Positions 3,574-24,744 of a DNA stretch of 62,908 nucleotides are shown here, piece after piece; position 1 is the first letter of the stretch; every line of letters starts with the position of its first letter. Where the stretch lies: NCBI GenBank assembly GCA_024399545.1, contig JAKSNS010000010.1, forward strand, positions 1-62,908, read 5' to 3'. The notes below the pieces were generated by a model. The model ran no database searches, had not been told where the DNA came from, and saw only the letters and a list, made by a program, of their open reading frames with translations. The position numbers and the translations under genes were made by a program. Source of the DNA: Paludibacteraceae bacterium (GTDB lineage: Bacteria; Bacteroidota; Bacteroidia; Bacteroidales; Paludibacteraceae).

Positions 3574-4038
3574 ATGGCAATGAAGGAAAATTTCATTTCG
3601 AAGGCGCCAGACGAGGAGTCTAACGCCAAAGTGTCACCCATTGACAACAACAAAACACTGCTCATCGACCAATTCACGTCAGATGCAGAACCAGGCAACC
3701 CCGAGTTTGTGGAGGACATACAGAACATGGACGATGCGTTCGCACGTTTCAAACCACAGGTTAACGTGACATTCACAGACGCAGAGGGAGGTTCGGTGGA
3801 CGAGACACTGCATTTCAACGAGATGCGTGACTTTTCGGCAGACGGGGGAAAAGGCAAGTTGGTGTCAAACTCCGCATTCCTTTCGGAGGCGAAGAAGAAT
3901 ATTGACGAAAACGCAAAACTCCGCAAGACCATCGAGCAGAACCGCAAACTGCGCGACATTATGAACGACAAAGAGTCGAAAGAGGAACTGAAAGAGATGC
4001 TTCAGGCACTGCTTGACGAACTTGAATCAAATAAATAA
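3574..4038 (+). CDS. tssB: T6SS contractile sheath small subunit TssB (VipA)
   Basis: 154 aa, the usual size for the subtype iii small sheath protein. The centre carries the family pattern F-KPQVNVTFTDAEG followed by LHFNEMRDFSADG (about 60-95), and the C-terminus is a long charged helix (about 110-154) that is expected to contact TssC and ClpV. TssB and TssC polymerise in the cytosol into the contractile sheath around the Hcp tube. It precedes tssC, with an unusual 96-bp hairpin-bearing spacer between them. Confidence 0.9.
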   Translation: MAMKENFISKAPDEESNAKVSPIDNNKTLLIDQFTSDAEPGNPEFVEDIQNMDDAFARFKPQVNVTFTDAEGGSVDETLHFNEMRDFSADGGKGKLVSNSAFLSEAKKNIDENAKLRKTIEQNRKLRDIMNDKESKEELKEMLQALLDELESNK

Positions 4039-5914: not shown

Positions 5915-5952
5915 AAAAAAGAAAAGTAGTAACCAATAAAAAAGAAAGAATT

Positions 5953-6411: not shown

Positions 6412-6425
6412 ATTATACTTTCGAG

Positions 6426-8151: not shown

Positions 8152-9936
8152 ATGGCTGATACTATATTTCAGGAATTGAAGAAAACACTTGACGATTTCA
8201 GCAATTGCGTTGAAAAAGATATTGAGGAGATTCGTCAGCAGAAGGCTGCCATTCAAAGTATGAAACTGGAGATGGAGTCATTGGCAGCCGGTCGCTTTAT
8301 TACTGACAGTCAGCGTATAGTCATCTCCGCACCAGAAATCATCATTGGTAATGTCGACCGCGATGGGGTCTTGCGTGGCGACTCGCCGTATTCTCATGTC
8401 GTAATCCGTTCAAACACCATTGACATAGAGGGTGCCAGCCCTGTTGGCGCAACAAGCGGAGGCTCAATCACCCAACGTGCATCAAGGATTTCTACAATCG
8501 CCGTTGACCCAGGTGCCGATGGGCTGGAGAACTATGTCGGCTTAGACTCGTCAATAATACAACAGGCACGCAGCATCAGTATAATGAGTAACGACGCACA
8601 GGATGTGTTCACGATGCCAGATGCTGTCCCTGTTGCCGGTGTCGCCATACATTCTGACTCATCGGTTGATATTAATGCCGTTCCTTCGGTCGAAGGAAGG
8701 CTTAATGATATAGAAGGAGCGAAAAAATCCCTTTCAGACGCCGTCTCACCGTTGAAGAGTGAAATGAGTGAGAAGAAAAAAGCGGTGGAGAACCTGATTG
8801 ACGCAATGGAGAAGTGCATAAATGACCAAGAGGGATTGACCGACGACCAGTGGATATGTACCACAAGCATTGCGGATATATATGAGAAAAACGCACAGTT
8901 GGATGGATTGAAACAGTCTTTCTGCATGGCGGTTGCTGAATACTCGGACGTTGTGTTCCGCCTTGCGGAGGCGAACCGCCAGATTAAGGCATTGGATGAG
9001 GCTAAGGGTGCAGTGGACAAGATAAAGGGGGATTTCAAGACCAAAACGACATTCGCCGAAGTGAGCATCAGTGGCGAGACAATCAACCTGACATCGCGTG
9101 ACGGTGACGGCAACCTCCGTACGAACGATGAGGCCGCCATCAACCTTCAGGCCCAGACTGTGAACGTAACTTCGCTTGACGGGAAGGGGGCATTGATGGA
9201 GAAAGGCTCGTTTACGCTGAACACCAAGACAATAAACATATCGACAGCCGACACCAAGAAGAAGGACGAAAAGAATATTGAGAACCCAGCAGTGGGTGAC
9301 ATTAACGTGGTGTCGAAGAACATAAACGTTGCGGCGGTGGATATGGAGACAAAGGACGGAAAGAGCGAACTGAAGGAACTGACCAAGGATGGAAAACTGG
9401 CTGTGCGAATCGAGAATGTCGATGTGCTGGCTGCCGACAAAGAAGGAAAGTCAACAGGTTCTGTAAGCGTGAACGCCAAAGCTGTTGAAATAAAGTCAAT
9501 GGATGTGGATAAGGATAAACTGACCGACAAACAGTTGGCGGCAGGCAGTACGATGGTGATGGTGAGCGAGAAGATGTGGCAGGGCGGCAAGGATAGTAAG
9601 ACGAAGAGCAAGCAGTATCAGATAACTGGTGAGAATGTGGCGGTGATTGCAAAGACCACCGCAGAGGTTCAGCAAGACAAGTCCATCGTGCAGTTGGATG
9701 GTGGCAATCTCTCCATCGGAGGCAGTAAGACGGCTCTCTTCGGCGAAACGACTGTTAACGGTAAGGCTGAGTTCAAGGCTGACTTGAAGGCTGGAAAAGC
9801 CACAATAGACAACGTCGAGGCTAAGTCGTCGTTCAAATCTACCAACATCTCGGATGGTATAGCTGTGCCTGCACCGCCTTCCACTGCCAACCTGACGGCA
9901 AAACTAAAGGAGGAGGAGGCTCCTAAAAAACAATAA
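8152..9936 (+). CDS. Coiled-coil and beta-repeat protein preceding the PAAR gene
   Basis: 594 aa, no signal peptide. Residues 1-50 are helical; 50-185 hold short beta repeats (RIVISAPEIIIGNVDRDG, VVIRSNTIDIEG, SSIIQQARSISIMS); 185-300 are a long coiled coil; 300-560 return to beta repeats (INLTSRDGDG, VNVTSLDGKG, INISTADT, INVAAVD, VEIKSMD). The repeat style resembles the beta-helical needle of VgrG/gp5. The C-terminal tail is Pro/Lys-rich. The gene ends one base into the ATG of the PAAR gene. It could be a spike extension, a scaffold or a cargo carrier delivered at the tip. I do not recognise a named family. Confidence 0.7.
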   Translation: MADTIFQELKKTLDDFSNCVEKDIEEIRQQKAAIQSMKLEMESLAAGRFITDSQRIVISAPEIIIGNVDRDGVLRGDSPYSHVVIRSNTIDIEGASPVGATSGGSITQRASRISTIAVDPGADGLENYVGLDSSIIQQARSISIMSNDAQDVFTMPDAVPVAGVAIHSDSSVDINAVPSVEGRLNDIEGAKKSLSDAVSPLKSEMSEKKKAVENLIDAMEKCINDQEGLTDDQWICTTSIADIYEKNAQLDGLKQSFCMAVAEYSDVVFRLAEANRQIKALDEAKGAVDKIKGDFKTKTTFAEVSISGETINLTSRDGDGNLRTNDEAAINLQAQTVNVTSLDGKGALMEKGSFTLNTKTINISTADTKKKDEKNIENPAVGDINVVSKNINVAAVDMETKDGKSELKELTKDGKLAVRIENVDVLAADKEGKSTGSVSVNAKAVEIKSMDVDKDKLTDKQLAAGSTMVMVSEKMWQGGKDSKTKSKQYQITGENVAVIAKTTAEVQQDKSIVQLDGGNLSIGGSKTALFGETTVNGKAEFKADLKAGKATIDNVEAKSSFKSTNISDGIAVPAPPSTANLTAKLKEEEAPKKQ

Positions 9937-10322
9937 TGGGCAAATTCGTTACAAATGGCGCGTTGCTGCAATGTTCGATGGGTGCTGCCCCCGTTCCGTT
10001 GACGGTTGTTGGTATGCGTCCTATGTGTGGCAATATGCCTATGGCAAACATTATGGATTTTGCGCCTATGGTGAACATCAAGCCTTTCGGGGTTTGTCGC
10101 TCGATGGCAAACCCGACGGTTGCTGCGGCGACGGCTGCGGCTATGGGTGTGCTGACGCCAATGCCATGCATTCCCGTCATCGTGTCGCCATGGTCACCGG
10201 GCGGGCAAGCCAAGGTGTGTATGTTACCAGCACTGATGGACAACTGCAAATGCATGTGTGCTTACGGAGGCAATATTTCGGTCAACTTCCCAGGCAATGT
10301 CGCAATGGCAACTGGCAAATAA
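9936..10322 (+). CDS. PAAR-like spike-tip protein (DUF4280)
   Basis: 128 aa. The whole protein fits the DUF4280 PAAR-like family: start GKFVTNGALLQCSMG, then ANIMDFAPMVNIKPFGVCRSMANPTVAAATAAAMGVLTPMPC, then SPWSPGG and a C-terminal CMCAYGGNISV. Such proteins form the conical tip that sharpens the VgrG trimer; the conserved Cys residues probably bind metal or stabilise the cone. It is coupled to the preceding gene (overlap of one base) and precedes an RRF-like gene and vgrG, the expected place for a tip gene. Confidence 0.9.
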   Translation: MGKFVTNGALLQCSMGAAPVPLTVVGMRPMCGNMPMANIMDFAPMVNIKPFGVCRSMANPTVAAATAAAMGVLTPMPCIPVIVSPWSPGGQAKVCMLPALMDNCKCMCAYGGNISVNFPGNVAMATGK

Positions 10323-11041: not shown

Positions 11042-14000
11042 ATGGCTGCAAGTTATTTAAGACTTACTCTGTCTGGAATTAAGAGTAAGGAGGATGGAAA
11101 TGATGTGGCTTATATGAATTTGAGGTTTAACAATACTGCCACTGAATCTTCTTTGCCAGATGGAAGTACTGTGAAAGTGACTCCAAAGTCTATATTTTTC
11201 CACAGAATGGTAGGTGGGCATAATACGATAAAGACGGAGTTGGTGGTTCTGGTGATAACCAAAGAAGATCAAAAGAATGCCAGCCTGTTTTTCGACTTGC
11301 GTGATTTTTTTGCGTCAGGAGGAGTATCACTGCATAGGTGTCATAAAGACGGTAAACAACAAGAAGTGGTCGAAACAAACAATCATTCCTTGGCTGAGGG
11401 TTATAAAGTGTTCAACGTCTATCCATCGTTTGAAACCAAGGGGGAAAAAACAGTTGAAAATAATTACGAATACACGTTCAAGGTCGAATTGGATATTGCC
11501 AGTTGGGATCTGTTGATGGATCAGACAAGGTACAGCCGCGCATATACAGCAAAGAAACTTGGCGATGACATAATGAAGGGTATGGTTTCTTCTATACAAC
11601 AAAAATATGATGTCTCAGGAATGCGCATTCTACGGCAAAAAGTAGGACCAAGTGACGCAATCGCCGAGGTTATCCAACCGTATTTGGTGCAGTATAACGA
11701 GACGGACTATGAGTTCCTGCTCCGCAACGCCAACAGATGTGGTGAGTTTTTCTATTTTGAAGACGGAAAACTGTATTTGGGCCTTAGTACCGACGAAAAA
11801 ACTAAAAAAGAGATTACGAATGCGAAGATTAGCGCCGTGCCTTGCACCGTGCAGCCCAATGACGGTGCTAAATTGTTTTACCAGAATTCTTGTGCTAAGA
11901 CATCGTCTTCCGCCCCCAGTGGTACGGATAAACCCTTTGTGGCGGAATACTCGAACGAGGACTGTTTCCTGCCATTGGAAAAAGATAAGTACGATAATGC
12001 GGATGCATGGGAGGGGCTGAACCCCGGTCCCGTGTTCAGGGTCTTTGGCGAAGTCTTCCAGATGGACAAGGTTGATTTGATGTCCGTTTTTGACGTTGTC
12101 AACAATTCGGTGTGGAAGGTTAATCAGGTGGCCAATACTTTCTCGAAAAAGTCTAATGACAATTTTAACGACAAATATTTCGGTGAAAATATACCCAATA
12201 AATCGAGTCGTTATTCAAATGATAAAAAAAAGTATGCCGAGTTCTCGGACTTATATGGCGAGAAAGCTTCGAATGATGCCGAATATAAAGTCAAATACCA
12301 ACCCTCGACATCCGCATTCTTTAATAATATAAGAACAGAGGCGAGGCTGGCACGGCAACAGTATTCAGTCACCGAGTATGGCGCTGGTTTAGATTACTGG
12401 TTAGGTCAGATTGTTACACTGGAAGGCGTGAAAGACAAAAATGTGGATAAAAGGTTCGTGGTGGTGGGGATTGATTGCGAATACAGAAATGGAGTCAATT
12501 CAATAGCGGGTGATTATACGAAAATAACGATTATTCCTGAAGGAGATTTGCCTTTACCTCTCCCCGCCAATGTCCCATATACGCTGAAGGCTGGCGCACA
12601 GCCTGCGGTTGTGGTGGATTCAAGCGACCCTATGCGTTTGGGACGTGTGCGTGTTCGTTACAATTGGCAAGGCAAAGGAGGCGACGCCACGCCTTGGATA
12701 CGTGTTACCACGCCTTTTTCTTCTTGGAAACCAAAAACGAAGAATGGCGATGACGATACGGGAGACGCTGGGTCAGGAATGTTCTGTAAACTCAATGCTG
12801 GTGACGATGTTATGGTTGATTACGAGAATGGTAACATTGAACGTCCTTATGTGGTTGGTTCGCTTTACGGAGGTAATAGACAGGACGGCGGCAGGCAAAC
12901 CCCTTACGGTGGCCGCAACTATTCGCATATTTTCCGTTCACGCTATGGCCACATGATTGGCATACGTGAGCCTTCTAAGGGTACTGGTATATTGACAAGC
13001 CTGATCCCAGGACTGAGCCTGTTCGGTGGAATCCCTGGTTTTTCGGATATGATTAAACCAGAGGCAGGTGAGAATGTAAAGCAAGCGCTTGGCGGCTTTG
13101 ATATATGTGACAATAACGGACTTTACTCGATTTCCACCTCTTCGGATGCTCGTAGGATTTCAATCAGTTCACCTTTCGGGACTGTGGGTATCGATGCCGC
13201 TATGGGAATCACCGTATCTGCCCCTAACGGTAACATCAAGATTGTCGGCAAGAATGTCGATATTATCGCAGGCAATAACCTGACATTGAAATCAGGTGAG
13301 AATGTGACGAATTCGTTATATTCGGCTGTAATGAAGTCGCCTTCGGGTTTTGATGTGTTTAAGGATCGTTTTGCTACATCTATAACAGATAAAATTTCAG
13401 ATACTTTTAATGTTCCTGCGATACGTTTCGCATTGGAATTGTTGCTTAGGCCCATACAAGGTACGCTAAAAATCCATTCCGGACGTCATCTAATCCTTGA
13501 ATCTGATGGCAAGAATACTCCTCTACCGGAGGAAACATTCTCACCTTCTCATAGGAAACATAATGATAAAATAACAGAATTGTTAGCAGTCGTAATTGAC
13601 TGTATTAAATATCTGAACACATACAAAAATATCTTTTTCGAGTATTATAGACAAGGGTTGAGGGAAAAGAGATCCATTGTCTATATAGCAGTTAGAAATA
13701 AAGATTTGTTAGAATTAAAAAAGGAACTTACCGATAACGAAATAAAAAAGAAAATAGACGATTTGATTACTGGGGGTTCGCTTGAAGAAAAAGAGTTGGC
13801 GTCATTCTTTTTTGATAAAGATGATGTGGTCGGTACACAAAAAATATTTATTCATCAAATAATACGTTCCATGGAAAGCCTACGTGAAACATCAACAAAA
13901 ATCAAAAATGAAGGGTTTAAGCCTAGATTAGATGATTTTATAAAGGTGAAAGACTTTTTTAAGAATCCAAAGATATTAATTAAGGGCAATGGGACAATAT

Positions 14001-14452
14001 CGGATGATGTGTTGAAGTTTAATATTGAAAAATATGGTGAATTATTTGAACATGACTATAAGAAAACGGTAAGGGATGAGTTAAAAAAAATCATAATTGA
14101 GTACGTGGGAAATGATGAGAAAGAAGAACATGTCTTGCTTGAGAAAGAGGGAACCGCCAATAAAGATTTTTCAGATATTGAGAATTGGTATGCTTACGTT
14201 GATGGCTTAAGTATGAATTGGAAGGTCGAAGATAAAAATCATCAACAAGGTTGGTTTGGAAAAACTATCAACAAATTGTTACCTGTTGATACATTCGATT
14301 TTGTCCGTAAATGGAATCCAGGTTCGCATGGCTCTATCTTGTTCCGCAACGAATCAAATTCATTGAAGTTTGATGGGGCTGATTTGAAAATATATGAATC
14401 AAGTGGTGACTTAGAAAAATTGAAGTCCATACTTAAGGATCGAACTGTATAA
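11042..14452 (+). CDS. vgrG: T6SS spike protein VgrG (TssI) with long C-terminal extension
   Basis: 1136 aa; the trimeric spike that carries the PAAR tip and cargo. Residues 1-500 match gp27-like domains; about 510-620 form the gp5 OB fold (AVVVDSSDPMRLGRVRVRYNWQGK, TPWIRVTTPFSS, GDDVMVDYENGNIERPYVVGSLYGG); 690-775 are the beta-helical needle (ISISSPFGTVGID, ITVSAPNGNIKIVGKNVDIIAGNNLTLKSG). Residues about 830-1136 are an added helical, Lys-rich region, encoded by DNA visibly more AT-rich than the rest, that fits no toxin family I recognise. It may load cargo or be an effector domain. The stop overlaps the ATG of the E1-like gene. Confidence 0.92.
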   Translation: MAASYLRLTLSGIKSKEDGNDVAYMNLRFNNTATESSLPDGSTVKVTPKSIFFHRMVGGHNTIKTELVVLVITKEDQKNASLFFDLRDFFASGGVSLHRCHKDGKQQEVVETNNHSLAEGYKVFNVYPSFETKGEKTVENNYEYTFKVELDIASWDLLMDQTRYSRAYTAKKLGDDIMKGMVSSIQQKYDVSGMRILRQKVGPSDAIAEVIQPYLVQYNETDYEFLLRNANRCGEFFYFEDGKLYLGLSTDEKTKKEITNAKISAVPCTVQPNDGAKLFYQNSCAKTSSSAPSGTDKPFVAEYSNEDCFLPLEKDKYDNADAWEGLNPGPVFRVFGEVFQMDKVDLMSVFDVVNNSVWKVNQVANTFSKKSNDNFNDKYFGENIPNKSSRYSNDKKKYAEFSDLYGEKASNDAEYKVKYQPSTSAFFNNIRTEARLARQQYSVTEYGAGLDYWLGQIVTLEGVKDKNVDKRFVVVGIDCEYRNGVNSIAGDYTKITIIPEGDLPLPLPANVPYTLKAGAQPAVVVDSSDPMRLGRVRVRYNWQGKGGDATPWIRVTTPFSSWKPKTKNGDDDTGDAGSGMFCKLNAGDDVMVDYENGNIERPYVVGSLYGGNRQDGGRQTPYGGRNYSHIFRSRYGHMIGIREPSKGTGILTSLIPGLSLFGGIPGFSDMIKPEAGENVKQALGGFDICDNNGLYSISTSSDARRISISSPFGTVGIDAAMGITVSAPNGNIKIVGKNVDIIAGNNLTLKSGENVTNSLYSAVMKSPSGFDVFKDRFATSITDKISDTFNVPAIRFALELLLRPIQGTLKIHSGRHLILESDGKNTPLPEETFSPSHRKHNDKITELLAVVIDCIKYLNTYKNIFFEYYRQGLREKRSIVYIAVRNKDLLELKKELTDNEIKKKIDDLITGGSLEEKELASFFFDKDDVVGTQKIFIHQIIRSMESLRETSTKIKNEGFKPRLDDFIKVKDFFKNPKILIKGNGTISDDVLKFNIEKYGELFEHDYKKTVRDELKKIIIEYVGNDEKEEHVLLEKEGTANKDFSDIENWYAYVDGLSMNWKVEDKNHQQGWFGKTINKLLPVDTFDFVRKWNPGSHGSILFRNESNSLKFDGADLKIYESSGDLEKLKSILKDRTV

Positions 14453-15513
14453 TGACAGGCTCTCGTTGTTTTGTTGTCGTAGGCTGCGGTGCTTTGGGGA
14501 ACGAGGTGCTGAAGAATTTGGCACTCCTCAATGTGGGAAGGTTGGTAATAGTGGATTTCGACTGTGTGGAGGAAGTGAACCTTGACCGTTCAGTGTTGTT
14601 CAGACGTGAGGATGTAGGGCGACCAAAAGTTGAGGTAGCACGTGACGGGATAAGAAGGCTGAACCCTGATGTGGAGGTCATTGCAATAAATGGCGACATT
14701 GCTCATGATGTGGGAATAGGGCTGCTGAGAGAGGCGGATGCCATAATAGGCTGTGTTGACAGCCGTTGGGCGAGATATTGCATAAACCGCCTTGCCTTCA
14801 GAGTCGGGCGACAGTGGATAGACGGTGGAATATTCGGGCTCACAGGTACAGTTAGGGTGTTTACGCCAGGGAAAAACTGCTATGCCTGTTCGCTGACGAC
14901 TGACGAACTCAATGAGTTGAGGCGCAGGATGCCTTGTTCGGGCATTATCCGCAGGGCTGTCGAGTCCGGTCATGCCGTGACAACCGCCATAGCAGCCTCG
15001 GTGATAGGAGCAATCCAGGCTCAGGAGGCATTGAGGATAGCGACGGGAGAGGAGTCGCCACTTGTAGGGCGTATGGCTGTCTATGAAGGCGAGACGATGG
15101 AGATGAGGGTGGTGCGTTTCGAGGCTTACGATGATGATTGCCCATGCCATGAGGAGTGGAGTCCTGTGATACAAACTGGAATAACTACTGATATGAATGT
15201 CCGTGACGTGTTGGAGAAATGTGGGGTGGAAAGTTTTGAACTGAGGGACGACTGTTTCGTGGACTACATCGTCTGCCATGAGGATGACAGCCGTCACAAG
15301 GTTATGCTGCCGGGCAGGAAGGTGGCTGGCTTTGTCGGAAGTGACCCGTTGTTGGGGCAGGTGCCGCTCAGCGGCTACTACCAGAATGAGTACAAGGTTA
15401 TAGACAAATCGTTCCCTTATCAGGAACTTACGTTGAACGAATTGGGCGTGACGGGCAGGGATGTCCTTCGTGCCAGTTTCGTTGGTGAGGAAAAATACAT
15501 AGCTTTGAAATGA
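14452..15513 (+). CDS. E1-like ubiquitin-activating adenylyltransferase (ThiF/UBA superfamily)
   Basis: 353 aa, cytosolic. It has the ATP site VVVGCGALG (8-16), IVDFD (33-37), NLDR (43-46), K59 and the VDSRWAR segment with D103. A zinc site is likely from C143/C146 and C230/C232. C162 in RMPCSGII is a candidate catalytic Cys, followed by TTAIAASVIGAIQAQEALR, typical of E1/MoeB enzymes. Residues 241-353 are an extra C-terminal domain in the place where eukaryotic E1s carry the E2-binding ubiquitin-fold domain; homology is not established. It should adenylate the C-terminal Gly of the Ubl at 19577 and pass it to the E2 at 19891. One-base overlap with vgrG and ATGA overlap with tssG argue that it belongs to the T6SS. 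A MoeB/ThiF cofactor role is less likely: no MoaD/ThiS partner is nearby. Confidence 0.85.
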   Translation: MTGSRCFVVVGCGALGNEVLKNLALLNVGRLVIVDFDCVEEVNLDRSVLFRREDVGRPKVEVARDGIRRLNPDVEVIAINGDIAHDVGIGLLREADAIIGCVDSRWARYCINRLAFRVGRQWIDGGIFGLTGTVRVFTPGKNCYACSLTTDELNELRRRMPCSGIIRRAVESGHAVTTAIAASVIGAIQAQEALRIATGEESPLVGRMAVYEGETMEMRVVRFEAYDDDCPCHEEWSPVIQTGITTDMNVRDVLEKCGVESFELRDDCFVDYIVCHEDDSRHKVMLPGRKVAGFVGSDPLLGQVPLSGYYQNEYKVIDKSFPYQELTLNELGVTGRDVLRASFVGEEKYIALK

Positions 15514-16253
15514 TAAACGAGATAAAAGCCGAAATGTTACTCAACTACCTCTACCCGGAGCTTTCGGGGGAGTGGGTGGCGCATTGCCGTGGCACGTTCT
15601 ACCGTAACTACAGCGATGATGCTATGTCGGTTGATCCAGCCTCGAAATCGGTCGAACTGTCGCGAGACGGTTTCCTGAAAATGCTTCCACCTGAGTATAT
15701 CTCGTTGGAGAAGGAGCAAGAGAGCGATGAGCGTCTCAGGGAGAGGATTGAGACTCTGACAGAGGCTTTCCTGCCTGTCGATTCGTTGATGTTCCGTCAG
15801 CAGCTACGTGTCGAGCAGACGGTGGCGGGAATGTTGAGGATACGTACTGCTTTTGTCCTGAAACGCATTTTCGGCATAGACTTAGACGATATCACGAACC
15901 CGTATGTGCGTGACGCAGCCTTGCTGCTGCCGTATGTCCGTCAGAGCCGTGGCGACATCGGCTGGGTGAGGCGTATGCTGGAGTCTGTTACCCTCTGTCC
16001 GGTCGAGATGACCGTCGGGCGTTGGTCAGACGACGATTCTTCGCGCGCATGGATGCCTTACGTCCACTACAACATTGTGTGCGATGGTCTGACACAAAGC
16101 GATTTCCAACGTGAATACGCCCGTCTGCAGGAATTGTCCGTTTTTGTCATGGAACATTGGATGCCTGCCGAGGTTGTGATGAAAATAGATTTGATAACCC
16201 ATATTCGCAAGAGGGAGTCGGCGATACTGGACTACTCTTGTGAGATGGACTGA
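15510..16253 (+). CDS. tssG: T6SS baseplate protein TssG (probable)
   Basis: 247 aa, in ATGA overlap with the E1-like gene. The DGFLKMLPPEYISLEKE segment and LRVEQTVAGMLRIRTAFVLKRIFGI, followed by a beta-rich second half (WMPYVHYNIVCDGLTQSDFQREY) and a -MEHWMPAEVVMKIDL end, fit the short TssG of subtype iii systems. TssG pairs with two TssF copies in each baseplate wedge. The call rests on layout, size and its place before tssK, tssE and tssF, since no other open frame in the operon could be TssG. Confidence 0.7.
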   Translation: MINEIKAEMLLNYLYPELSGEWVAHCRGTFYRNYSDDAMSVDPASKSVELSRDGFLKMLPPEYISLEKEQESDERLRERIETLTEAFLPVDSLMFRQQLRVEQTVAGMLRIRTAFVLKRIFGIDLDDITNPYVRDAALLLPYVRQSRGDIGWVRRMLESVTLCPVEMTVGRWSDDDSSRAWMPYVHYNIVCDGLTQSDFQREYARLQELSVFVMEHWMPAEVVMKIDLITHIRKRESAILDYSCEMD

Positions 16254-16266
16254 TAGCGTTGACCGT

Positions 16267-17403
16267 ATGAATATAAATTCCAAAATAAACCTCTCGCCCG
16301 GGGTGCAGTTGACCGCCGAGACGCTCAACACCCTTTTCGCCTCTTTTTACGAACGCCAACTGGTGGCTGTCCGTTCGGTGAACATCGGCAGGATTGGCGT
16401 GATGCCGGGGTATGCCAACAGGGTGCGTGGAGTTTTTGTCCGCGACACCATCGAGGTGGAGATTCACGACCTGATGGCGGTTTTGCCTTCGGGCATTATC
16501 GCCAATATCGATGAGACTGCTGTAGTCAAAGTGCCATTGCTCTATGGCGACACGTACTACTTTACGGTCAAGGTGTCGGACGCATTGGTTAGTTTCGAGT
16601 CGAATGGTGTCCCGTTCGTTCGCAACGAATACAGCTTTGCCATCTCCTCGTTCGACGAGATGGTAGCCTCTTCTTCTTTTCCCCTTATCCGTTTCAATGT
16701 TAAAGATGGTGTCTTTTCTATTGACGACCAATATATAATACCTTGTCTCGCCACGGAGTGTGATCCACGTATTGTCGGACGTGTCGGTGAGATTGCCGAT
16801 TGTTTGCGCACACTCGCTGGACATCCTAATATAGCCGATGGTGCCTTGCGTCCATCCCTACTTGGGCTTGCGTTTCGTCTTGATGGCTATTGTGTTGGTG
16901 ATAGGAGAGTGTCTGATTTAGTTCTCACTACCCGTGAGGTAGCGTCTGCAATTAATTATTTCATCGTCCATCCTAACAATCAGGAGGCTGAAGCTCCTAT
17001 GGAACCATCCTTTTTTGACATTGACCGATGGTTTGTCTGGTTGAAGGATTACATTGACGGTGCAAGTACGATTTTGGACGGTGTTGTGGTTGAAAAAGAA
17101 GAGATTGACCTTGAGGCAATCAAGCAGGAACTCCGTGCCGAAATCTATGACCATATACAGCCCGACCTTGAGCGTATGGTCAACGAGCGTGTCGATAACC
17201 TTTCCGACGCTTTGCAGTCACGCATCGAGGATGTCCTCAAGGATTACGTCAACGGCAAGGTGCTTGTCGAGTTGCGCGATTCGCTCCGCCTACAGTTGGA
17301 TGCCGATTTGCGTTCTTCCCTTTATGCCGACCTCTATCAGGCACTTTATGCTGTCCTTTTTGTACCAAAAGAAGAGGAAGATGCCTTCGTTCCTCTGATT
17401 TAG
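16267..17403 (+). CDS. tssK: T6SS baseplate protein TssK
   Basis: 378 aa from ATG 16267; an ATG at 16240 would overlap tssG and add nine residues not seen at TssK starts. The N-terminus INSKINLSPGVQLTAETLNTLF is the typical subtype iii opening, followed by a beta-rich shoulder domain and a helical C-terminal half (about 250-365) rich in charged heptads. TssK trimers link the baseplate wedge to the membrane complex. In Bacteroidota, TssN is reported to make that link, so the membrane proteins at the end of this operon are likely partners. Confidence 0.8.
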   Translation: MNINSKINLSPGVQLTAETLNTLFASFYERQLVAVRSVNIGRIGVMPGYANRVRGVFVRDTIEVEIHDLMAVLPSGIIANIDETAVVKVPLLYGDTYYFTVKVSDALVSFESNGVPFVRNEYSFAISSFDEMVASSSFPLIRFNVKDGVFSIDDQYIIPCLATECDPRIVGRVGEIADCLRTLAGHPNIADGALRPSLLGLAFRLDGYCVGDRRVSDLVLTTREVASAINYFIVHPNNQEAEAPMEPSFFDIDRWFVWLKDYIDGASTILDGVVVEKEEIDLEAIKQELRAEIYDHIQPDLERMVNERVDNLSDALQSRIEDVLKDYVNGKVLVELRDSLRLQLDADLRSSLYADLYQALYAVLFVPKEEEDAFVPLI

Positions 17404-17415
17404 TGATGATAAGAT

Positions 17416-17871
17416 ATGGATTTTCTATCTCTACCATTGAGTGTCGTAAAAGGAAAATTGAGCCGTGAAAGCGATACGAAACGCTCGATTGACTCCAACC
17501 TCGCCACTATGATAGCGGCTGCCCGTTTTTCGTGCGTGGCTGATCCTGATTACGGCTTTGTCTTCAACAATTACCGTTTCAACATCTTCAACGAGAACGA
17601 AGGGGTGATTTTCGATTCTAAGCCACAGACGACATTACCAACCGAACGGAATATATACAATCTCAAATTGAGTGGCAAATCCCTGAACGTAAATACGTTT
17701 GCCGCTGAAATAAGCAGGGTGGTCGCATCTTACGAACCACGTTTAAGCGATGTGAAGGCTTCGATGACCTACGTTCGTGAACAGAAACTTGTATATGTGA
17801 CTGTCAATGGCGTGATTGCTGAGACAGGCGAAGAATATACATTTACAACAACCGTTAAAGTCTGGAATTGA
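17416..17871 (+). CDS. tssE: T6SS baseplate protein TssE (gp25-like)
   Basis: 151 aa. The gp25-like core is visible: KRSIDSNLATMIAAARFSCVADPDYGFVFNNYRF (about 22-56), then AAEISRVVASYEPRLSDVKASMTYV (about 94-118). TssE seeds sheath polymerisation on the baseplate. Its TGA overlaps the ATG of tssF by one base, consistent with coupled translation of baseplate subunits. Confidence 0.85.
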   Translation: MDFLSLPLSVVKGKLSRESDTKRSIDSNLATMIAAARFSCVADPDYGFVFNNYRFNIFNENEGVIFDSKPQTTLPTERNIYNLKLSGKSLNVNTFAAEISRVVASYEPRLSDVKASMTYVREQKLVYVTVNGVIAETGEEYTFTTTVKVWN

Positions 17872-19574
17872 TGGATAACAATACTATACTCGAAATCAGG
17901 CAACGTTCCGCCGAACTTATGCGTCAGGCTTTGCTGATATGGCAGTCGGGGGTACATTCTGAGAACTTAGAGGGTACGGACAGTGACCCTGTTTTTCAGA
18001 TGCTTATGACTGCCATGGCGTACCAGTTCAACGAGATGGACTCTAACCTTGAGTCAATCAGGCAACAGGTGATGGACGATTTTGCCGAAGTGTTGATGCC
18101 TTACCGTGTGAACGGTGTCGTTCCGTCGTCATTCGTCATGCAGTGCCAACCATCCGACGACCTGGCTGACGTGATGCTGGACAGCGACTCCGTCTTTACC
18201 GCTAAGGGAACGGACCTGCAGTTCATACCGTTGCTTCGTACACGTGTCCTGAACGCTTCGGTTGATAAGGTGGTACGTATTGACGGCAGGCGGTGGAAGG
18301 TCTCGCTGCTTTTCCCCGAGTCTGTTACCACGCTCGATGGTTTCGCCTTTGCCATCAGCGACCTTATATTCCGCGACCTCTCAGTGACGGTGAACGGACA
18401 TCTCCTCCCCTTGATTAAACCCTGGGATATCCACAATATGCCGATGACTGAGCCTTTCGACTTCGTCACGCAACTCTATAACCGTACCCCCGTCTTTGAT
18501 GCCGGGTCGCTGCCTATGGACGTTATGGCACGTCAGGATGTCTGCCTCTTCTGTGTGGGGGAGGGAACCGGTGGGACTCTCTCGTTGCCCGAAGAGACCC
18601 ATAACCTTGATTTCATATTCGAGTTCTTTGGGATTGACGACGATTTCGTACTTGACAAGACGAAACTGACCCTGAACGCCAACATCCTGGTCAACGCCAA
18701 GGTCAATGTCGCTTCGTTGTCGGAGAAATCCCCAATAGCGCGGATTTCGGACACTGACGGTCAGAAGTTCATGAAACTCCTTACGCCTCCCAAAGACCAG
18801 ATACTGAGCCAGTACAATGTGACCGTCCGCCGTGTGATGGCTGAGCGTTTCAACCTTAGCGGTCTGGTCAGGTTGCTGGACTGCCTGATAGCCAAGTTCC
18901 ATTCCGACACATACGCCTTTCTGGCATTCGGACAGCAAGAGGGCGACAGCGCGCTAAACAGTCTCTTGCAGTTGATGACCCGACTTCGCAATCAGGCTGC
19001 CGCTGGCAACAGGGACGTCAGCAAAGCCGACAGGCAGGGACTCTATCTTTTCCTCTCAGCCGCCGATGATAAGGTGGTGCGTTTGCCCGATAGTTTTGAC
19101 ATCCGTTATTTGACCACCAATGGTGCGGTTGATGAGTCGCAATTGAGTGCCAACACCTTGTTCACTATGCCTGTAGGTGTTGATGCACAGCAGTTTCGTA
19201 TGATTTCCGTGCCTGTGTTAGGCTCAGATGGACGCTTGGCGGGCAAGGAGGGGGATGCCGAAGTGGCTTATTGGGTTTCGTCCTCGGACCGTATAGTGAC
19301 ACCTGCCGACATCCGTATGTTCTGTATTGCAACGTTGATGGAAATGCTTTCCGTTGACAGGGATATGATTCGTTCGGTGAATGTGTCGCGTATGCTCTCT
19401 CACGATTCGCCAGTGGGGTATGCCGTCAGCGTAGAGGTGCGGCTGGTCGATTCGTCTTTGATGCGTAAGACTGTCGGCGACCGTATCCCCCGTTTGGAGT
19501 GTCTGCTCGAAAACCTGCTCCGCGTACGTAGTATAGGTATTTATCCGATGAACGTTAAGATAGAAATGAATTAG
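17871..19574 (+). CDS. tssF: T6SS baseplate protein TssF
   Basis: 567 aa from ATG 17871 (a TTG three bases upstream is unlikely). The N-terminal helix region with DPVFQMLMTAMAYQFNEMDSNLESIRQQVMDDFAEVLMPYRVNGVVPSSFVMQ (40-105 or so) is the TssF hallmark, followed by large beta domains and an IYPMNVKIEMN end. TssF2-TssG forms the wedge core. The Ubl gene starts two bases after its stop, placing the Ubl-E2 pair in the baseplate part of the operon. Confidence 0.88.
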   Translation: MDNNTILEIRQRSAELMRQALLIWQSGVHSENLEGTDSDPVFQMLMTAMAYQFNEMDSNLESIRQQVMDDFAEVLMPYRVNGVVPSSFVMQCQPSDDLADVMLDSDSVFTAKGTDLQFIPLLRTRVLNASVDKVVRIDGRRWKVSLLFPESVTTLDGFAFAISDLIFRDLSVTVNGHLLPLIKPWDIHNMPMTEPFDFVTQLYNRTPVFDAGSLPMDVMARQDVCLFCVGEGTGGTLSLPEETHNLDFIFEFFGIDDDFVLDKTKLTLNANILVNAKVNVASLSEKSPIARISDTDGQKFMKLLTPPKDQILSQYNVTVRRVMAERFNLSGLVRLLDCLIAKFHSDTYAFLAFGQQEGDSALNSLLQLMTRLRNQAAAGNRDVSKADRQGLYLFLSAADDKVVRLPDSFDIRYLTTNGAVDESQLSANTLFTMPVGVDAQQFRMISVPVLGSDGRLAGKEGDAEVAYWVSSSDRIVTPADIRMFCIATLMEMLSVDRDMIRSVNVSRMLSHDSPVGYAVSVEVRLVDSSLMRKTVGDRIPRLECLLENLLRVRSIGIYPMNVKIEMN

Positions 19575-19576
19575 TT

Positions 19577-19894
19577 ATGGAAGAGTTCTTTTTGAATATA
19601 TCATACCGGAACAAAAAGGTCAAGTTCCGTGTCGTAAACCCTTCTTTGCCTCTTGGTACGCTTATGTCGAACCTTCGTCACGCCACTGGCAAGGACGGAC
19701 GGTTGATTTTTGACTTCCCGAACATCGACGAGACCGGTGCCCCTCTGGATTACTATTTCGGCAAGGAGGACACCACGGTCAACGAGATACGGGTAATGCG
19801 CCCACGCATTGGCAAGGAGGAGCAGACGCTCGCCGACTATAACATACAGAACGGCGACACCGTTTTTTTGGTACCTGACCCATTTCCGGGATGA
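19577..19894 (+). CDS. Ubiquitin-like modifier of the T6SS operon
   Basis: 105 aa. The beta-grasp fold is suggested by an N-terminal hairpin (FLNISYRNKKVKFRVV), a central helix (LGTLMSNLRHATG) and the ubiquitin-like end TLADYNIQNGDTVFLV (84-99), which parallels TL-DYNIQ--STLHLV of ubiquitin. The chain ends ...PDPFPG: a single exposed C-terminal Gly, so no processing protease is needed. About 30 residues longer than ubiquitin owing to an insert near 45-75. It begins two bases after tssF and shares ATGA with the E2 gene. YukD/EsaB Ubls of type VII secretion are a known analogue, but those lack a matching E1/E2. Confidence 0.82.
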   Translation: MEEFFLNISYRNKKVKFRVVNPSLPLGTLMSNLRHATGKDGRLIFDFPNIDETGAPLDYYFGKEDTTVNEIRVMRPRIGKEEQTLADYNIQNGDTVFLVPDPFPG

Positions 19895-20406
19895 CTGGTC
19901 GTGACAGGCGTCTGGCTTACGAGTATGGGGAATTGGTCAAACGTCTGGAACATCACCCCGAAATCCGTCTTGTCGTCGAACACAGAAACGCAAACGGTCT
20001 GCCAAACAGGTATCTTGTTTGGTATTCAGTACGTTCCATAGCAGGAATTGACGAACAAACCGCCAAGCCGTTCTACGCTGACCGCTTTGTGATGCGGATT
20101 GATATTCCTTCCGACTATCCCTCGGTGGATGCTCCTGCGGTATTCCGTTTTCTGACCGAAGACCCTGAGACACACGTGAAAATAGCGCACCCATGGCATC
20201 CCAACATACGTTATTACGGTGACTTGGCTGGCCGTGTCTGCCTGAATGCCTTCGACAGTTTCACTAACCTTGCTTGGGGGGTACTTAGGGTGTGGGAGTA
20301 TCTTCGTTACGAACGCTACCATGCCGTTAACGAACCTCCTTACCCTGAAGACCAACGTGTTGCCGCTTGGGTGATACGTGTCGCCGAACCTAATGGATAT
20401 ATTTGA
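19891..20406 (+). CDS. E2-like ubiquitin-conjugating enzyme of the T6SS operon
   Basis: 171 aa with a full UBC layout: N-terminal helix RRLAYEYGELVKRL, beta meander (YLVWYSVRSI, FVMRIDIPSDYPSVDAPAVFRFL), then HPN (103-105) and the catalytic Cys C117 in GRVCLNAFD, then a helix (LAWGVLRVWEYLRYERY) and PPYPEDQRVAAWVIR, the equivalent of the DPL-N-AA region. HPN plus a downstream Cys is the standard E2 active site; N105 would form the oxyanion hole. The ATGA overlap with the Ubl gene predicts that the two are made in step. It should accept Ubl from the E1 at 14452. Confidence 0.87.
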   Translation: MTGRDRRLAYEYGELVKRLEHHPEIRLVVEHRNANGLPNRYLVWYSVRSIAGIDEQTAKPFYADRFVMRIDIPSDYPSVDAPAVFRFLTEDPETHVKIAHPWHPNIRYYGDLAGRVCLNAFDSFTNLAWGVLRVWEYLRYERYHAVNEPPYPEDQRVAAWVIRVAEPNGYI

Positions 20407-20423
20407 CTTTTGCGCCAAAAAGC

Positions 20424-21566
20424 ATGAAACATATAATAATACTATTACTTGTCGTTTTGTTGCCTTTGATGTCGGAGGCTCAGACCGTGCGCGAGATAAC
20501 AATCTCGGCGGATAAGCCTTACACCGACAATTTCTCGCTTGCCAACGAGTCTGGCGATATGGACGTAATGATTAAGTTCTCGTTCGACGAGGCTAACAAT
20601 CAGGTCGTTGTGTCTATGACCTCCTACCGTGGCTTGTTCGTGTTCCGTGAGGACACACGCTATAAACAGGTCGTCAAATTCGGGAAACTGAGGATGAAAG
20701 AACTGCCATACGTCGTGACTGGTGAGGAGGTGCCCTACAAAATGCCCTGCAAGTTCAAAAAACAGTTGGGCAGGCACCGCAAAAACTTCGTTTTCAAGCG
20801 TTGGCTGAACTATTCGGGACTGCTGCCTGAACCTATGGAATATAAGATGGTCAACGATGTCGTGGAACAGAAGTTCGGTATCGTTGGCGACAAACGCACC
20901 TCTGTCGCCATAACACTTGGCGACGTGATGATTATGGAGCCTAAGACCAATTTCTTAAAAAAGAGTTATTATAGGTTCTTGCGTTTCGTGCGTGTCAATA
21001 CAAGGTACAACATAACCATCGAGCGTGACCCCTGTTTTGCTATGGAGGAGCAGATTTCCATTGCCTCGCAACAGAAAGTGGCGGCAACCCAGGCTCTCGA
21101 AAGCTTGCATAACACATTTCCTGACCGTGTCACTAATATGCAGGAAACTTTCGACCTCTTCAGCAAGACCAAGGAAATGCTTGTCCAGCAGTACCCTAAA
21201 TGCGACACGGTCAGCGATTGTCCACAGTTGCAAGCTCTTAACGACAGTTTCAATGTCGTGGTTGACTCTATACTCGCATTCAAATGTAAGTTAGTTGTCT
21301 CCTCTGACTCTACTGTGTCCGTCGCTAACCCTTCATATCTCCTCTCGGCTGCCTACGCCATTGATATGAAGGTCTCCCGTTGGCAGCTTACCACTGATGC
21401 CCTTGAGCGTGCTGATATAATTAAATTCTGTAACGAGCGCATTGAGAGCGTCAACGACTATGTCAAACGTTACGGTTTACGTTCCAAAGAGATGAAGGAA
21501 GCAAATGCAATCATGCAAAAAGCCATACGTTACTATCAATCAACGTGCCATATCCGTAAACAGTGA
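20424..21566 (+). CDS. Exported T6SS-associated protein, candidate membrane-complex subunit
   Basis: 380 aa from ATG 20424 (a TTG at 20403 overlapping the E2 stop is the alternative). A signal peptide MKHIIILLLVVLLPLMSEAQ is followed by a beta-rich N-terminal half (about 25-200) and a helical C-terminal half with coiled-coil character. There is no second membrane segment, so it should be periplasmic or attached to the outer membrane. It has no clear match to TssO, TssP, TssQ or TssR that I can make by eye, but its place after the baseplate genes suggests part of the envelope-spanning complex. The stop overlaps the GTG of the next gene. Confidence 0.6.
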   Translation: MKHIIILLLVVLLPLMSEAQTVREITISADKPYTDNFSLANESGDMDVMIKFSFDEANNQVVVSMTSYRGLFVFREDTRYKQVVKFGKLRMKELPYVVTGEEVPYKMPCKFKKQLGRHRKNFVFKRWLNYSGLLPEPMEYKMVNDVVEQKFGIVGDKRTSVAITLGDVMIMEPKTNFLKKSYYRFLRFVRVNTRYNITIERDPCFAMEEQISIASQQKVAATQALESLHNTFPDRVTNMQETFDLFSKTKEMLVQQYPKCDTVSDCPQLQALNDSFNVVVDSILAFKCKLVVSSDSTVSVANPSYLLSAAYAIDMKVSRWQLTTDALERADIIKFCNERIESVNDYVKRYGLRSKEMKEANAIMQKAIRYYQSTCHIRKQ

Positions 21567-22387
21567 GACGTATTTTGAACATATTGGTATTGGTTTTTGT
21601 TGTTTCGTCATCGCTCTATGCTCAGGATAGTGATGGAGTGGACGATTATGATGCCTATACCCTTATCGTTCAGGCTCGTTTGTCGCAATTCAATTCCGAT
21701 ATGCTGGGACTCTGTTCGCATGTCGCTACCGCCTCGTCCGCAGGCATCATCGACCTCAAGCGCAACTTCAATTCGTTGGATGTGCGGTGGAATACCTATT
21801 GCAACGCTCAGCAGGGATATATAGCCGACAAGGAGGTGCTTCTTGCCATAGTGGCTCAGTATCAGCAGACACGGCAGATGGTACTTGACTCGATAGACCA
21901 TTGCTCTATGCGTCTCAATGCCGAAACCGTGTTCAACGATGTACAGGCGTTCATGAACTCCAAGTTGCCCGAATACGATGCCTTGATTAGGAAATGCGGC
22001 AAACTCTCGCTTTCCGAGAAGACCGCTCCGCAGCTGGAACGCCTTCAGACCAGTGAGCAGTTGACCTTTTCTGATATTACCGCTAAGTACCAATCCGCCA
22101 AAGAGGCTGTCACTCTCAACCCTTCGCTCAAAAACAAGGAACAGCAGCTCGACAATCTCTACCTTGACCTCTCCGCCAAGTCAGGACAGGTGCAGGAGGC
22201 TAAATATAAACCTTTCATCGAGCGTATCAAGGATTACCTCCTCGGCTTTGCTGCCGTGGCGATTGTGTTGATGTTTGTCAGCATGATCCAGAACAAGATT
22301 GTTGCCACCAAGCAGATGAAAGAGTCGCTCAAGAAACTTAAGGAACAATATATAAAAGAAGGACAGGATGATATCCCGTCTATATAA
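21563..22387 (+). CDS. T6SS-associated inner-membrane protein with periplasmic coiled coil
   Basis: 274 aa, starting at GTG within a GTGA overlap. An N-terminal signal peptide (to LYAQ, about 21) precedes a long helical region (30-220), then one membrane helix (about 228-246, LLGFAAVAIVLMFVSMI) and a basic cytosolic tail (ATKQMKESLKKLKEQYIKEG). The layout, periplasmic stalk with a short tail facing the baseplate, suits a membrane-complex subunit such as TssO or TssP of Bacteroidota, but identity is not shown. Confidence 0.6.
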   Translation: MRRILNILVLVFVVSSSLYAQDSDGVDDYDAYTLIVQARLSQFNSDMLGLCSHVATASSAGIIDLKRNFNSLDVRWNTYCNAQQGYIADKEVLLAIVAQYQQTRQMVLDSIDHCSMRLNAETVFNDVQAFMNSKLPEYDALIRKCGKLSLSEKTAPQLERLQTSEQLTFSDITAKYQSAKEAVTLNPSLKNKEQQLDNLYLDLSAKSGQVQEAKYKPFIERIKDYLLGFAAVAIVLMFVSMIQNKIVATKQMKESLKKLKEQYIKEGQDDIPSI

Positions 22388-22392
22388 ACGTA

Positions 22393-24744
22393 ATGAAAAA
22401 ATCACTTAAGATATTACTTTTGTCGTTTGTTGCTGTCGTTGCATTCGGTTGCGACAATGAGGAATTGGATGAACAGGATGCCGCCCAACCCATTTTGTCT
22501 GTGACTCATACGGAAAACAGCAATAATTATAAAACGCTAAAACTCTATACGAAACTCCAAAACCCACCGCAAATCTGTAGTCAATTGCAAATGGATATGC
22601 TTACGGTACGCGAGTTCAACCATCGCCAAAAGGAGGTGGATAGCGCCCTCACCGCAAAGGTTACCGATATTAAAAATATAGGATCGGATATGATTGACAG
22701 TTTAGGCATTAAACTGTTGGTGCTTGTCGATTTGACACTTCCGCAAAGTCTTGTGGATAGTCAATATGTATATGTGACTATGATTAAGAGGCTTTACTCT
22801 GCCGAAAACCTTTTTCTCTCTTTCATCCATGCGGACAGCGTCTCAAGTTCTTACCTTGCTTCCGATTACGTTATGTCGAATTATTTTGTTTCTGAGTCTG
22901 ACACACTGACACACAAGGGCCTATATCGGGCTATTTACCGCAAATGTTGCGAGCTGAATGATACCTTATCCCTATTTGGGGCAAATCCCCTCTGTGCTAT
23001 GATAGTCTTCTCAGACGGTAACGTTTATGGTATGGACGCAACGCCAATAGACCCCGACCACTATCAGTTGCAGACGGATATTCTTGATGAGATTGTCCGT
23101 AAGGGTCGGCCGCTCTATTATTTCAACCTTGACAATTCCTCCGTCGGAGGTGTCAACGATGCTGCCAATTTTATGCAACTCGTGGCTGAAAGGTCGCATG
23201 GTCGGTACATGGAGTCTTTCGATTGGGTTAGTTGCGAAAACGACCTTGCCGAGGCTTTTGGCGTGAATTACAACGATTACCTGCTTACCCTCGAATACCC
23301 TTCAAACCGTATTTTCGATGGTAAGAACAGGTTGCAGCTCTATATCAACACCAACGACTCATCTTACTTGCTTGTCGATACGTTTTTCAAGGTTGGCACT
23401 GTCTGCAACCCTATATTTGTCGATGGTGCGCCACAGGCTAAAATCGTGTTGCAGGGCATTTTGCTTGCCATTTTGCTCATTATCCTGATTTATCTGATTT
23501 TCCAGTTTGTCATTCCTTATATTTTGTATTATCATTTTCAACGGAAGCATACCACGAAATATGTTGGCCCGAACACGACTTTGAATGGCGTTCCAGTGGG
23601 TGATGTCTGCTATTTTTGTAAGACTCCTTTCCAAGTTGGTGATAGGGTGGTGGCTAAGTGCACGCACACCATGCACAAAAGTTGTTGGAAGGAGAACGAT
23701 TACCATTGCACCGAGTATGGACGCAAATGTAGGCACGGCTCTCACTATTATAATCAAAACGACCTTTTTGACCCTCGTAACGCCTCTTTTTATACGGTGT
23801 GGCTTATAGTTGCCGTGTTTATCGCCATTTCATCTGAAATAGCTTATGTTGTCTATGACCAGGAGATTACCTTCAACCTCATGCTGGATTACTATACAAG
23901 GATATTGGATATTAAGTCTGGTACGCCAGAGTATATGGCTGCTATTGAAGATTTGGAGACAGCTCTTGACCAAATGCCTTCGTTCGGGACTTTCCTCGGT
24001 TTTGAGTTTACCTTCTGCCTTGGTTTTATGGTGAATTTCAGACGGCTGCATATTCGCAAGATTTTTGAGCTGTTTATCCAGTCGATAATATCGGGTGTTT
24101 GCGGTTTCGTCTTCTTCCTCATAGATGTTTTTACGAATCTTGCTACTGACGACAGTGGAGTGTTGGACTTTTTTGATTGGATGCCTTGGACTGCTACTGC
24201 TGTGATGTCGGTTTTCTGTGCGACGTACCATACAAAGTTACACCCTAAGAGGAAAAGGTTCATTGGTATGCTTATGGTGGGCGTTTTCTCTATGCTCGTG
24301 TGGGACATCGTCTTCTCTAACACCTCAGCCGACTATAGGTTGATGCTCTTTATCTCTAACCTTATCTTCTCGTTCGGTCTTACGCTTTCCATAGCCGTTC
24401 CTATGCATAGTTCCGAGAACTATGTCCTCCATGTTTCTGGTTGCATCAAGGAAATGGATGTCGCAATCTACAAATGGTTCAAGCAGTCTGCCTCCTCGCA
24501 TGTCACCATTGGCCGCTCCATCGACTGCGGCATTCAGACCTCTTGGGACATTCAGGGAAACGTTGCAGCCGTCCATGCCGAGATTATCCAGTTCCGTAGG
24601 AAGCTTTATCTTGTTCCTCTGGAACTTGGTGTATATTCTGGAAAGAAAATGCTGAAGGTGAACCATCGCTATCACCTTTACCATGGCCGAGTCTTCACCA
24701 TCGGAACAACGACATTCACATTCCATGAGCGTGATTTGTATTAA
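22393..24744 (+). CDS. vWA / RING-H2-like / seven-TM / FHA-like membrane protein: candidate E3 and T6SS anchor
   Basis: 783 aa. A lipoprotein-like signal (AFGC, C20) leads into a periplasmic von Willebrand A-like domain (LLVLVDLT 108-115; AMIVFSDGN 202-210). A membrane span (351-376) ends in HFQRKH, placing the next part in the cytosol: zinc site C406, C409, C423, H425, H428, C431, C439, C446, i.e. C-x2-C-x13-C-x-H-x2-H-x2-C-x7-C-x6-C. The first six ligands match RING-H2; the last pair is wider than the usual C-x2-C. Six more spans (about 466-670) follow, then a cytosolic FHA-like domain (VTIGRS 704-709, VHAEI, FTIGTTTFTF). The spans and cytosolic tail suggest a TssN-like anchor joined to other modules. 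With E1, Ubl and E2 in the same operon, an E3-like role is likely. Confidence 0.75.
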   Translation: MKKSLKILLLSFVAVVAFGCDNEELDEQDAAQPILSVTHTENSNNYKTLKLYTKLQNPPQICSQLQMDMLTVREFNHRQKEVDSALTAKVTDIKNIGSDMIDSLGIKLLVLVDLTLPQSLVDSQYVYVTMIKRLYSAENLFLSFIHADSVSSSYLASDYVMSNYFVSESDTLTHKGLYRAIYRKCCELNDTLSLFGANPLCAMIVFSDGNVYGMDATPIDPDHYQLQTDILDEIVRKGRPLYYFNLDNSSVGGVNDAANFMQLVAERSHGRYMESFDWVSCENDLAEAFGVNYNDYLLTLEYPSNRIFDGKNRLQLYINTNDSSYLLVDTFFKVGTVCNPIFVDGAPQAKIVLQGILLAILLIILIYLIFQFVIPYILYYHFQRKHTTKYVGPNTTLNGVPVGDVCYFCKTPFQVGDRVVAKCTHTMHKSCWKENDYHCTEYGRKCRHGSHYYNQNDLFDPRNASFYTVWLIVAVFIAISSEIAYVVYDQEITFNLMLDYYTRILDIKSGTPEYMAAIEDLETALDQMPSFGTFLGFEFTFCLGFMVNFRRLHIRKIFELFIQSIISGVCGFVFFLIDVFTNLATDDSGVLDFFDWMPWTATAVMSVFCATYHTKLHPKRKRFIGMLMVGVFSMLVWDIVFSNTSADYRLMLFISNLIFSFGLTLSIAVPMHSSENYVLHVSGCIKEMDVAIYKWFKQSASSHVTIGRSIDCGIQTSWDIQGNVAAVHAEIIQFRRKLYLVPLELGVYSGKKMLKVNHRYHLYHGRVFTIGTTTFTFHERDLY

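Follow-up and report, generated by a model that had tools for sequence, protein, structure and literature searches.

Genes resembling a ubiquitin-like conjugation pathway within a type VI secretion cluster of Bacteroidales

Why should a gene cluster for a bacterial injection machine contain genes that look like an E1 activating enzyme, a ubiquitin-like protein (Ubl), an E2 conjugating enzyme and a RING protein? The question is raised by a stretch of 62,908 nucleotides from Paludibacteraceae bacterium (assembly GCA_024399545.1, contig JAKSNS010000010.1, positions 1 to 62,908 of the forward strand), hereafter the window, which belongs to a genome of 2.3 Mb in 67 contigs and encodes a type VI secretion system (T6SS). 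Here we describe that many Bacteroidales carry genes resembling a complete Ubl-tagging pathway inside a T6SS cluster. The assignment of this E1/Ubl/E2/RING set to the T6SS, put forward in an earlier note on the same DNA, is strongly supported by gene order, invariant residues, shared divergence, gene fusions and a JAMM-motif protein in sister loci. The data are best explained by a distinct T6SS class that has its own dedicated arm for Ubl conjugation, including a putative membrane RING E3. The genes of the set, their order and their residues are taken from sequence, and the Ubl fold and the architecture of the membrane protein are predicted.

The enzyme set and its conserved residues

The genes in question form part of a one-strand cluster (positions 1326-24744, plus strand), in which sheath, tube and spike genes are followed by a run from E1 to a membrane protein of 783 amino acids (Table 1). 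An E1-like enzyme with an ATP site at residues 11-16 and a candidate cysteine C162 had been placed between vgrG and tssG, and this assignment holds. The protein belongs to the ThiF family above the cut-off; the GxGxxG motif at 11-16 is kept in 74/74 family rows with letters at this place, and the candidate catalytic acceptor C162 in 75/75. Likely zinc ligands are C143, C146, C230 and H233. When compared with the PDB, the family profile matches UBA7, SUMO E1 subunit 2, UBA6, ubiquitin E1 and MoeB.

The earlier note also described, between tssF and the envelope genes, a Ubl ending in glycine and an E2 with HPN at 103-105 and C117, and both the gene order and the residues agree with it. The terminal glycine stands directly before the stop codon in 83/83 loci as well as in the window, so that no maturation of the Ubl would be required there; among distant Ubls, a tail follows the glycine in L091 (four residues) and L122 (two). 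Structure models, which cover the Ubl and the RING protein, predict a beta-grasp fold for the Ubl (pLDDT 86.5), with ubiquitin-fold rows in the fold search and Pfam matches below cut-off; the expected ubiquitin-like fold is thereby recovered by prediction. HPN and C117 of the E2 are present in 85/85 rows, and the family profile matches UBE2K in the PDB (0.0022) with HPN and the cysteine aligned. As far as can be judged from these alignments, the catalytic residues expected of a Ubl pathway are intact in E1, Ubl and E2. Moreover, the close packing of the genes is reproduced in the DNA, with reading-frame overlaps of 1 base for VgrG/E1 and 4 bases each for E1/TssG and Ubl/E2, and a gap of 2 bases between TssF and the Ubl.

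The RING-like site noticed in the last protein of the operon was likewise recovered. Its eight ligands (C406, C409, C423, H425, H428, C431, C439 and C446) are found in 73 of 74 rows, the remaining row being truncated; in L018 the protein is cut by the contig end and the ligand region is missing. The zf-RING_2 model matches 25/25 family members, weakly (best 3.2e-4). The predicted architecture comprises an N-terminal signal, a vWA-like domain, a transmembrane (TM) helix at 348-386, the RING site, six further TM helices and an FHA-like domain, the vWA and FHA assignments resting on Foldseek rows and on Pfam hits to family members and to distant homologues. In the model a single TM helix precedes the RING site and six lie between it and the FHA-like domain; as this number is even, both would be on the same side of the membrane. 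The even count, together with the positive residues that end the helix 348-386, fits a cytosolic RING. In L015, L035, L045 and L068 the RING protein and the preceding envelope protein, o21563, are encoded by a single continuous frame of 1066-1110 codons, and these fusions suggest that the RING protein is probably part of the envelope complex. We consider it a candidate membrane E3. A role of the FHA-like domain as a phospho-threonine reader was considered and set aside: the position held by R708 in the window is lysine in the family consensus, which makes phospho-threonine binding doubtful.

Linkage to the secretion system and occurrence in other genomes

GTDB species genomes were scanned with the E2 alignment, and the locus counts below refer to the best 80 of 135 relatives. 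Their record titles name Bacteroidota taxa, many of them from rumen, gut or faecal samples; the closest E2 among these 80 is that of Candidatus Minthenecus merdequi (74%). At least one match to the T6SS profiles used (TssB, C, E, F, G, K, ClpV, VgrG, Hcp and PAAR) was obtained in 79/80 loci, the exception being L009, a contig of 5.5 kb. The Ubl and E2 genes are adjacent, and the whole set lies on one strand, in all 80 loci; E1 adjoins TssG in 74/80 and TssF adjoins the Ubl in 71/80. E1 is present in 75/80 and the RING protein in 77/80, as a separate protein in 73 and fused to o21563 in four, every missing E1 or RING protein belonging to a locus whose contig stops before the expected place. A second gene order, Ubl-E2-..-JAB-RING-E1-TssG-TssK, retains the same partners in seven loci, some of which are near-copies. 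Random insertion of the genes, which a survey of other T6SS loci could have revealed, is ruled out by this synteny across 80 loci.

Of 295 genomes from the order, 15 have TssC (PF17541) and five the E2; four of these five are also among the 15, the exception being G016. The E1, Ubl, E2 and RING profiles had no match in five TssC-bearing loci that lack E2 (L109-L113). A TssC tree built from 23 rows groups together 12 of the 13 that have the set (100/100), with long branches flagged. In addition, pairwise distances were compared between genes: for E1, Ubl, E2 and the RING protein they correlate at 0.73-0.90 with those for TssG, TssK, TssE and TssF and at 0.44-0.62 with those for PAAR; the comparison used 60 loci with eight genes plus the window, dropped pairs with an E2 distance below 0.08, and comprised 1823 pairs for E2 and TssF. 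A weak E2 match in G009 (4.6e-4) was lost on profile search and dropped.

In 7/7 loci of the second gene order, a gene lying between those for E2 and the RING protein encodes a product with the JAMM motif HSHPGL..FLS..D; homologues of this product occur in G178, G016, G046 and G242. Such homologues were sought by protein query, because the Pfam model PF14464 failed to recover those of G178 and G046, both known to be positive. Matches to a JAMM-like regular expression were counted only for open reading frames (ORFs) that phmmer joined too; the expression also matched other ORFs in 15 first-order loci, in L090 and in L112, as well as a second ORF in several further loci. As a putative JAMM protease, the protein would fall into the enzyme class from which Ubl removal is expected.

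Across 395 genomes of the phylum the E2 is found in four: that of the window, G358, G452 and, weakly, G474 (1.2e-5). G358 and G452 represent one genus of the same class as the window genome and of a different order. In G358, an E1-Ubl-E2-JAB protein-vWA/TM/FHA protein set adjoins a locus for an extracellular contractile injection system (eCIS) with sheath, gp19 tubes, CIS tube, gp25, spike, PAAR and eCIS_core cargo. G452 has the same set next to a PAAR-like gene; in the stretches read there, T6SS profiles match no core injection gene, eCIS models not having been run. Thus the tie between the set and injection machines is strong yet not universal. The E2 of G474 has a JAB-LysM protein as its neighbour; the stretch read there gave no E1 match, and this E2 was not counted as part of the system. 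L121 and L124, from another order of the class, have an E1-Ubl-E2-JAB set beside an eCIS with PAAR and eCIS_core cargo. In G016, a second, longer protein that starts like its Ubl is encoded downstream of the E1-Ubl-E2-JAB-RING set (L128, 12891-13982).

Proposed mechanism and its alternatives

We propose that the set most likely attaches the Ubl to a part of the machine near the membrane docking site and thereby controls assembly or firing. E1 would adenylate the terminal glycine of the Ubl, carry the Ubl on C162 and hand it to C117 of E2; the RING protein, in the inner membrane with its RING in the cytosol, would recruit E2~Ubl at the point where the baseplate docks. Covalent attachment to a baseplate, tube or membrane part or to cargo may fairly be inferred, the likely acceptor being a baseplate or membrane-complex protein. 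Conserved lysines give a weak clue: K84 of TssE is present in 72/72 rows, and K410, K686 and K694 of the RING protein in 73/73 each; TssE K84 is named here as a candidate only. The tag may then label a docked or mature particle or bring in a factor, and in sister loci the JAMM protease would take it off. In a broader form, which we favour with some reserve, contractile injection systems of Bacteroidia (this T6SS class and a related eCIS) would have their own E1-E2-RING cascade governing assembly, with a JAMM deconjugase in sister lines and a RING ligase within a membrane anchor that replaces TssNQOPR.

Several observations weigh against this proposal. The E2, Ubl and RING protein of the window all score under Pfam cut-offs, and hhalign of the E1 C-terminal domain against the Ubl family was unconvincing (probability 1.6), leaving the reading of that domain as a ubiquitin fold unsupported. 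The last ligand pair of the RING site is spaced C-x6-C, the usual spacing being C-x2-C, and the homologues in G358 and G452 have lost the zinc ligands, so RING activity is not universal. Protein query found no JAB homologue in the window genome, where the tag may therefore be permanent or cleared by another enzyme, nor in the other 73/80 loci as fetched. TssG, TssK and TssF have no lysine conserved at 95%. Close relationship among many of the 80 loci means that the counts are not independent events, and because G046 falls outside the main TssC clade, the presence of the set needs two changes. Distances of the PEGA protein of the cluster correlate equally well (0.71-0.85), and the baseplate correlations are partly due to shared species history. 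Finally, G016 has the set and the JAB protein with no recognised injection-system gene on its 43-kb contig, and in its Ubl four residues follow the glycine.

The Ubl could also act as a scaffold that is never conjugated, in the manner of YukD or of the ubiquitin-like domains in EccD and TssN, with E1 and E2 only preparing or chaperoning it. We consider this unlikely, as the invariant cysteines of E1 and E2, the terminal glycine, the RING-type site and the JAMM protein of the sister loci indicate transfer and removal. There is a similarly small chance that the acceptor is cargo or the VgrG/PAAR/Hcp tip, with the Ubl serving for loading or acting within the target cell. The position of E1 right after VgrG in the window, overlapping it by one base, and the eCIS cargo and PAAR genes adjoining the set in G358 speak for such a destination; however, other loci have different genes ahead of E1, the distances follow the baseplate more than PAAR, and the RING protein is a predicted membrane protein kept with the envelope genes.

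Matches of the E1 to the PADLOC models for E1-E2 (1.1e-16) and BilD (1.4e-6), both over partial length, and to Citrobacter BubCD in the PDB (2.5e-11), would agree with an anti-phage module of the Bil, Bub or CBASS type that sits in the T6SS locus. Since PADLOC gives no match to the Ubl, E2 or RING protein, and E1 and Ubl so regularly adjoin TssG and TssF, this explanation is highly improbable. Hardly any weight can be given to a sulfur-carrier pathway of the MoeB/MoaD or ThiF/ThiS type serving a cofactor: the E1 does match MoeB and ThiF models and structures as well, but the Ubl ends in a single Gly and not Gly-Gly, the genes lie within the T6SS cluster, and sulfur transfer uses neither E2 nor RING proteins.

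Known systems and other genes of the cluster

Our proposal of a Ubl-conjugation arm can be set beside several known systems. The T6SS-iii of architectures GA1-GA3 has in common with the window a TssC of PF17541, Hcp/TssD, VgrG and baseplate-like proteins. PMC10781749 describes for the GA3 T6SS-iii of gut Bacteroidales a membrane complex TssNQOPR, with a ubiquitin-like domain in TssN and with TssR as a vWA lipoprotein; in the part consulted 'ThiF' is absent and 'ubiquitin' is confined to the TssN domain. In the corresponding parts of PMC4714493 and PMC8102008 neither 'ThiF' nor 'ubiquitin' occurs, and in that of PMC1779556 neither 'VgrG' nor 'type VI'. The difference from T6SS-iii lies in the membrane complex: TssO is found in 0/5 genomes with the set and in 7/11 TssC genomes without E2; strong TssR_VWA matches occur in 3 of these 11. 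TssO and TssR_VWA, the two components of the complex searched by models of their own, were not found in the window genome; 0/85 loci were matched by five queries drawn from L112, a locus with TssO and TssR, two of these queries being named TssP and TssN by position. Short TssR_VWA matches in genomes with E2 are above the cut-off in G242 and below it in G016, the former (1.6e-7, 82/304 positions) being putatively another vWA protein.

With the Bil (BilABCD) and Bub systems the present set has E1, E2 and Ubl in common and, in sister loci, the JAB protease; it differs in its RING protein, its T6SS link and the only partial PADLOC match of E1 to BilD. A full BilA/BilB/BilC/BilD set is not found, the Ubl and E2 having no PADLOC match and the window genome no JAB homologue. 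RING fingers that work with E1, E2 and YukD-like Ubls in some bacteria were reportedly predicted by Burroughs, Iyer and Aravind in 2011, and some of the operons they are said to describe may be identical to the present genes. We know of no T6SS link for those sets; as far as we are aware, that work reduces the novelty of the enzyme set, not of the T6SS link. The archaeal ubiquitin cascade also combines eukaryote-like E1, E2 and RING E3 in a prokaryote, but its RING protein is small and no secretion machine is named in the part of PMC5654768 consulted. Among the titles and abstract openings listed from a mostly openly licensed literature, none reports such a set in a T6SS.

The T6SS can be controlled by threonine phosphorylation through a kinase, an FHA protein and a phosphatase, likewise a post-translational control encoded beside T6SS genes; in the window, Ubl enzymes occupy that place and the RING protein bears an FHA-like domain. 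Of the five TssC-bearing loci without E2 that were read, three (L109, L110 and L113) have kinase, FHA or PP2C genes, so a different modification arm may serve a similar role there. Across these three loci the genes encode Ser/Thr kinases, FHA proteins and, in L110, a PP2C phosphatase.

If our proposal is true, a bacterial secretion nanomachine is under Ubl-tagging control. Bacterial Ubl conjugation would extend past phage defence and T6SS biology would gain a new switch, with a prokaryotic setting in which to study how secretion machines came to be joined with YukD-like Ubls and eukaryote-like E1-E2-RING cascades. The idea is testable, as named strains carry the locus, for instance Bacteroides mediterraneensis An793 (L059), Prevotella sp. 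ne3005 (L014) and Xylanibacter ruminicola D31d. PMC11204068 reports strong TssD expression by B. mediterraneensis in the chicken caecum, with An793 among the inoculated strains; that the expressed TssD comes from L059, the An793 locus with the set, is putative.

Table 1. Genes of the T6SS cluster in the window
Feature	Position	Strand	Evidence
ClpV-like AAA+ ATPase (sheath recycling)	1326..3539	+	Pfam AAA_2 2e-59, ClpB_D2-small 2.1e-21
TssB-like sheath subunit	3574..4038	+	Pfam T6SS_VipA 0.043 (weak); position before TssC
TssC sheath subunit	4135..5487	+	Pfam TssC PF17541 1.4e-101
Four Hcp/TssD tube proteins	5522-5914, 5905-6354, 6393-6842, 6852-7331	+	Pfam TssD 8.1e-29, 1.6e-18, 3.2e-12, 9.9e-5 (last below cut-off)
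PAAR-like DUF4280 tip protein	9936..10322	+	Pfam DUF4280 8.1e-27
VgrG spike with C-terminal extension	11042..14452	+	Pfam Phage_base_V 2.2e-11, Phage_GPD 1.6e-10
E1-like activating enzyme	14452..15513	+	ThiF 1.2e-53
TssG-like baseplate protein (inferred)	15510..16253	+	Position; family profile
TssK-like baseplate protein	16240..17403	+	NCBIfam TIGR03353 2.2e-4 (below cut-off)
TssE-like baseplate protein (gp25)	17416..17871	+	TIGR03357 5.5e-7, GPW_gp25 2.6e-5 (both below cut-offs)
TssF-like baseplate protein	17868..19574	+	Pfam TssF 0.045 (weak)
Ubiquitin-like protein (Ubl), C-terminus DPFPG then stop	19577..19894	+	
E2-like conjugating enzyme, HPN 103-105, C117	19891..20406	+	UQ_con 3.5e-5 (below cut-off)
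Envelope protein, family o20403, likely signal peptide	20403..21566	+	76 rows including the window
Envelope protein, family o21563, likely signal peptide and C-terminal TM helix	21563..22387	+	
vWA/TM/RING/FHA-like membrane protein, candidate E3	22393..24744	+	Motif, model, Foldseek

Curated models for TssG, TssK, TssE and TssF are weak, and these names rest on position and on matches of the family profiles in TssC-bearing loci without E2. Pfam and NCBIfam give no match to the TssG-like protein of the window; the TssG family profile built here matches ORFs in the TssC-bearing loci without E2, and that of TssF matches ORFs of such loci at 1e-15 to 1e-36. For o20403, Pfam search gives no family above cut-off. 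Between the PAAR and VgrG genes (10350-11036) lies a gene for a protein of 228 amino acids that matches the ribosome recycling factor model PF01765 (1.3e-8), a family found in 47/85 loci. Finally, the PEGA-domain protein, present in 51/85 loci, is encoded directly after the Hcp genes (7328-8149).

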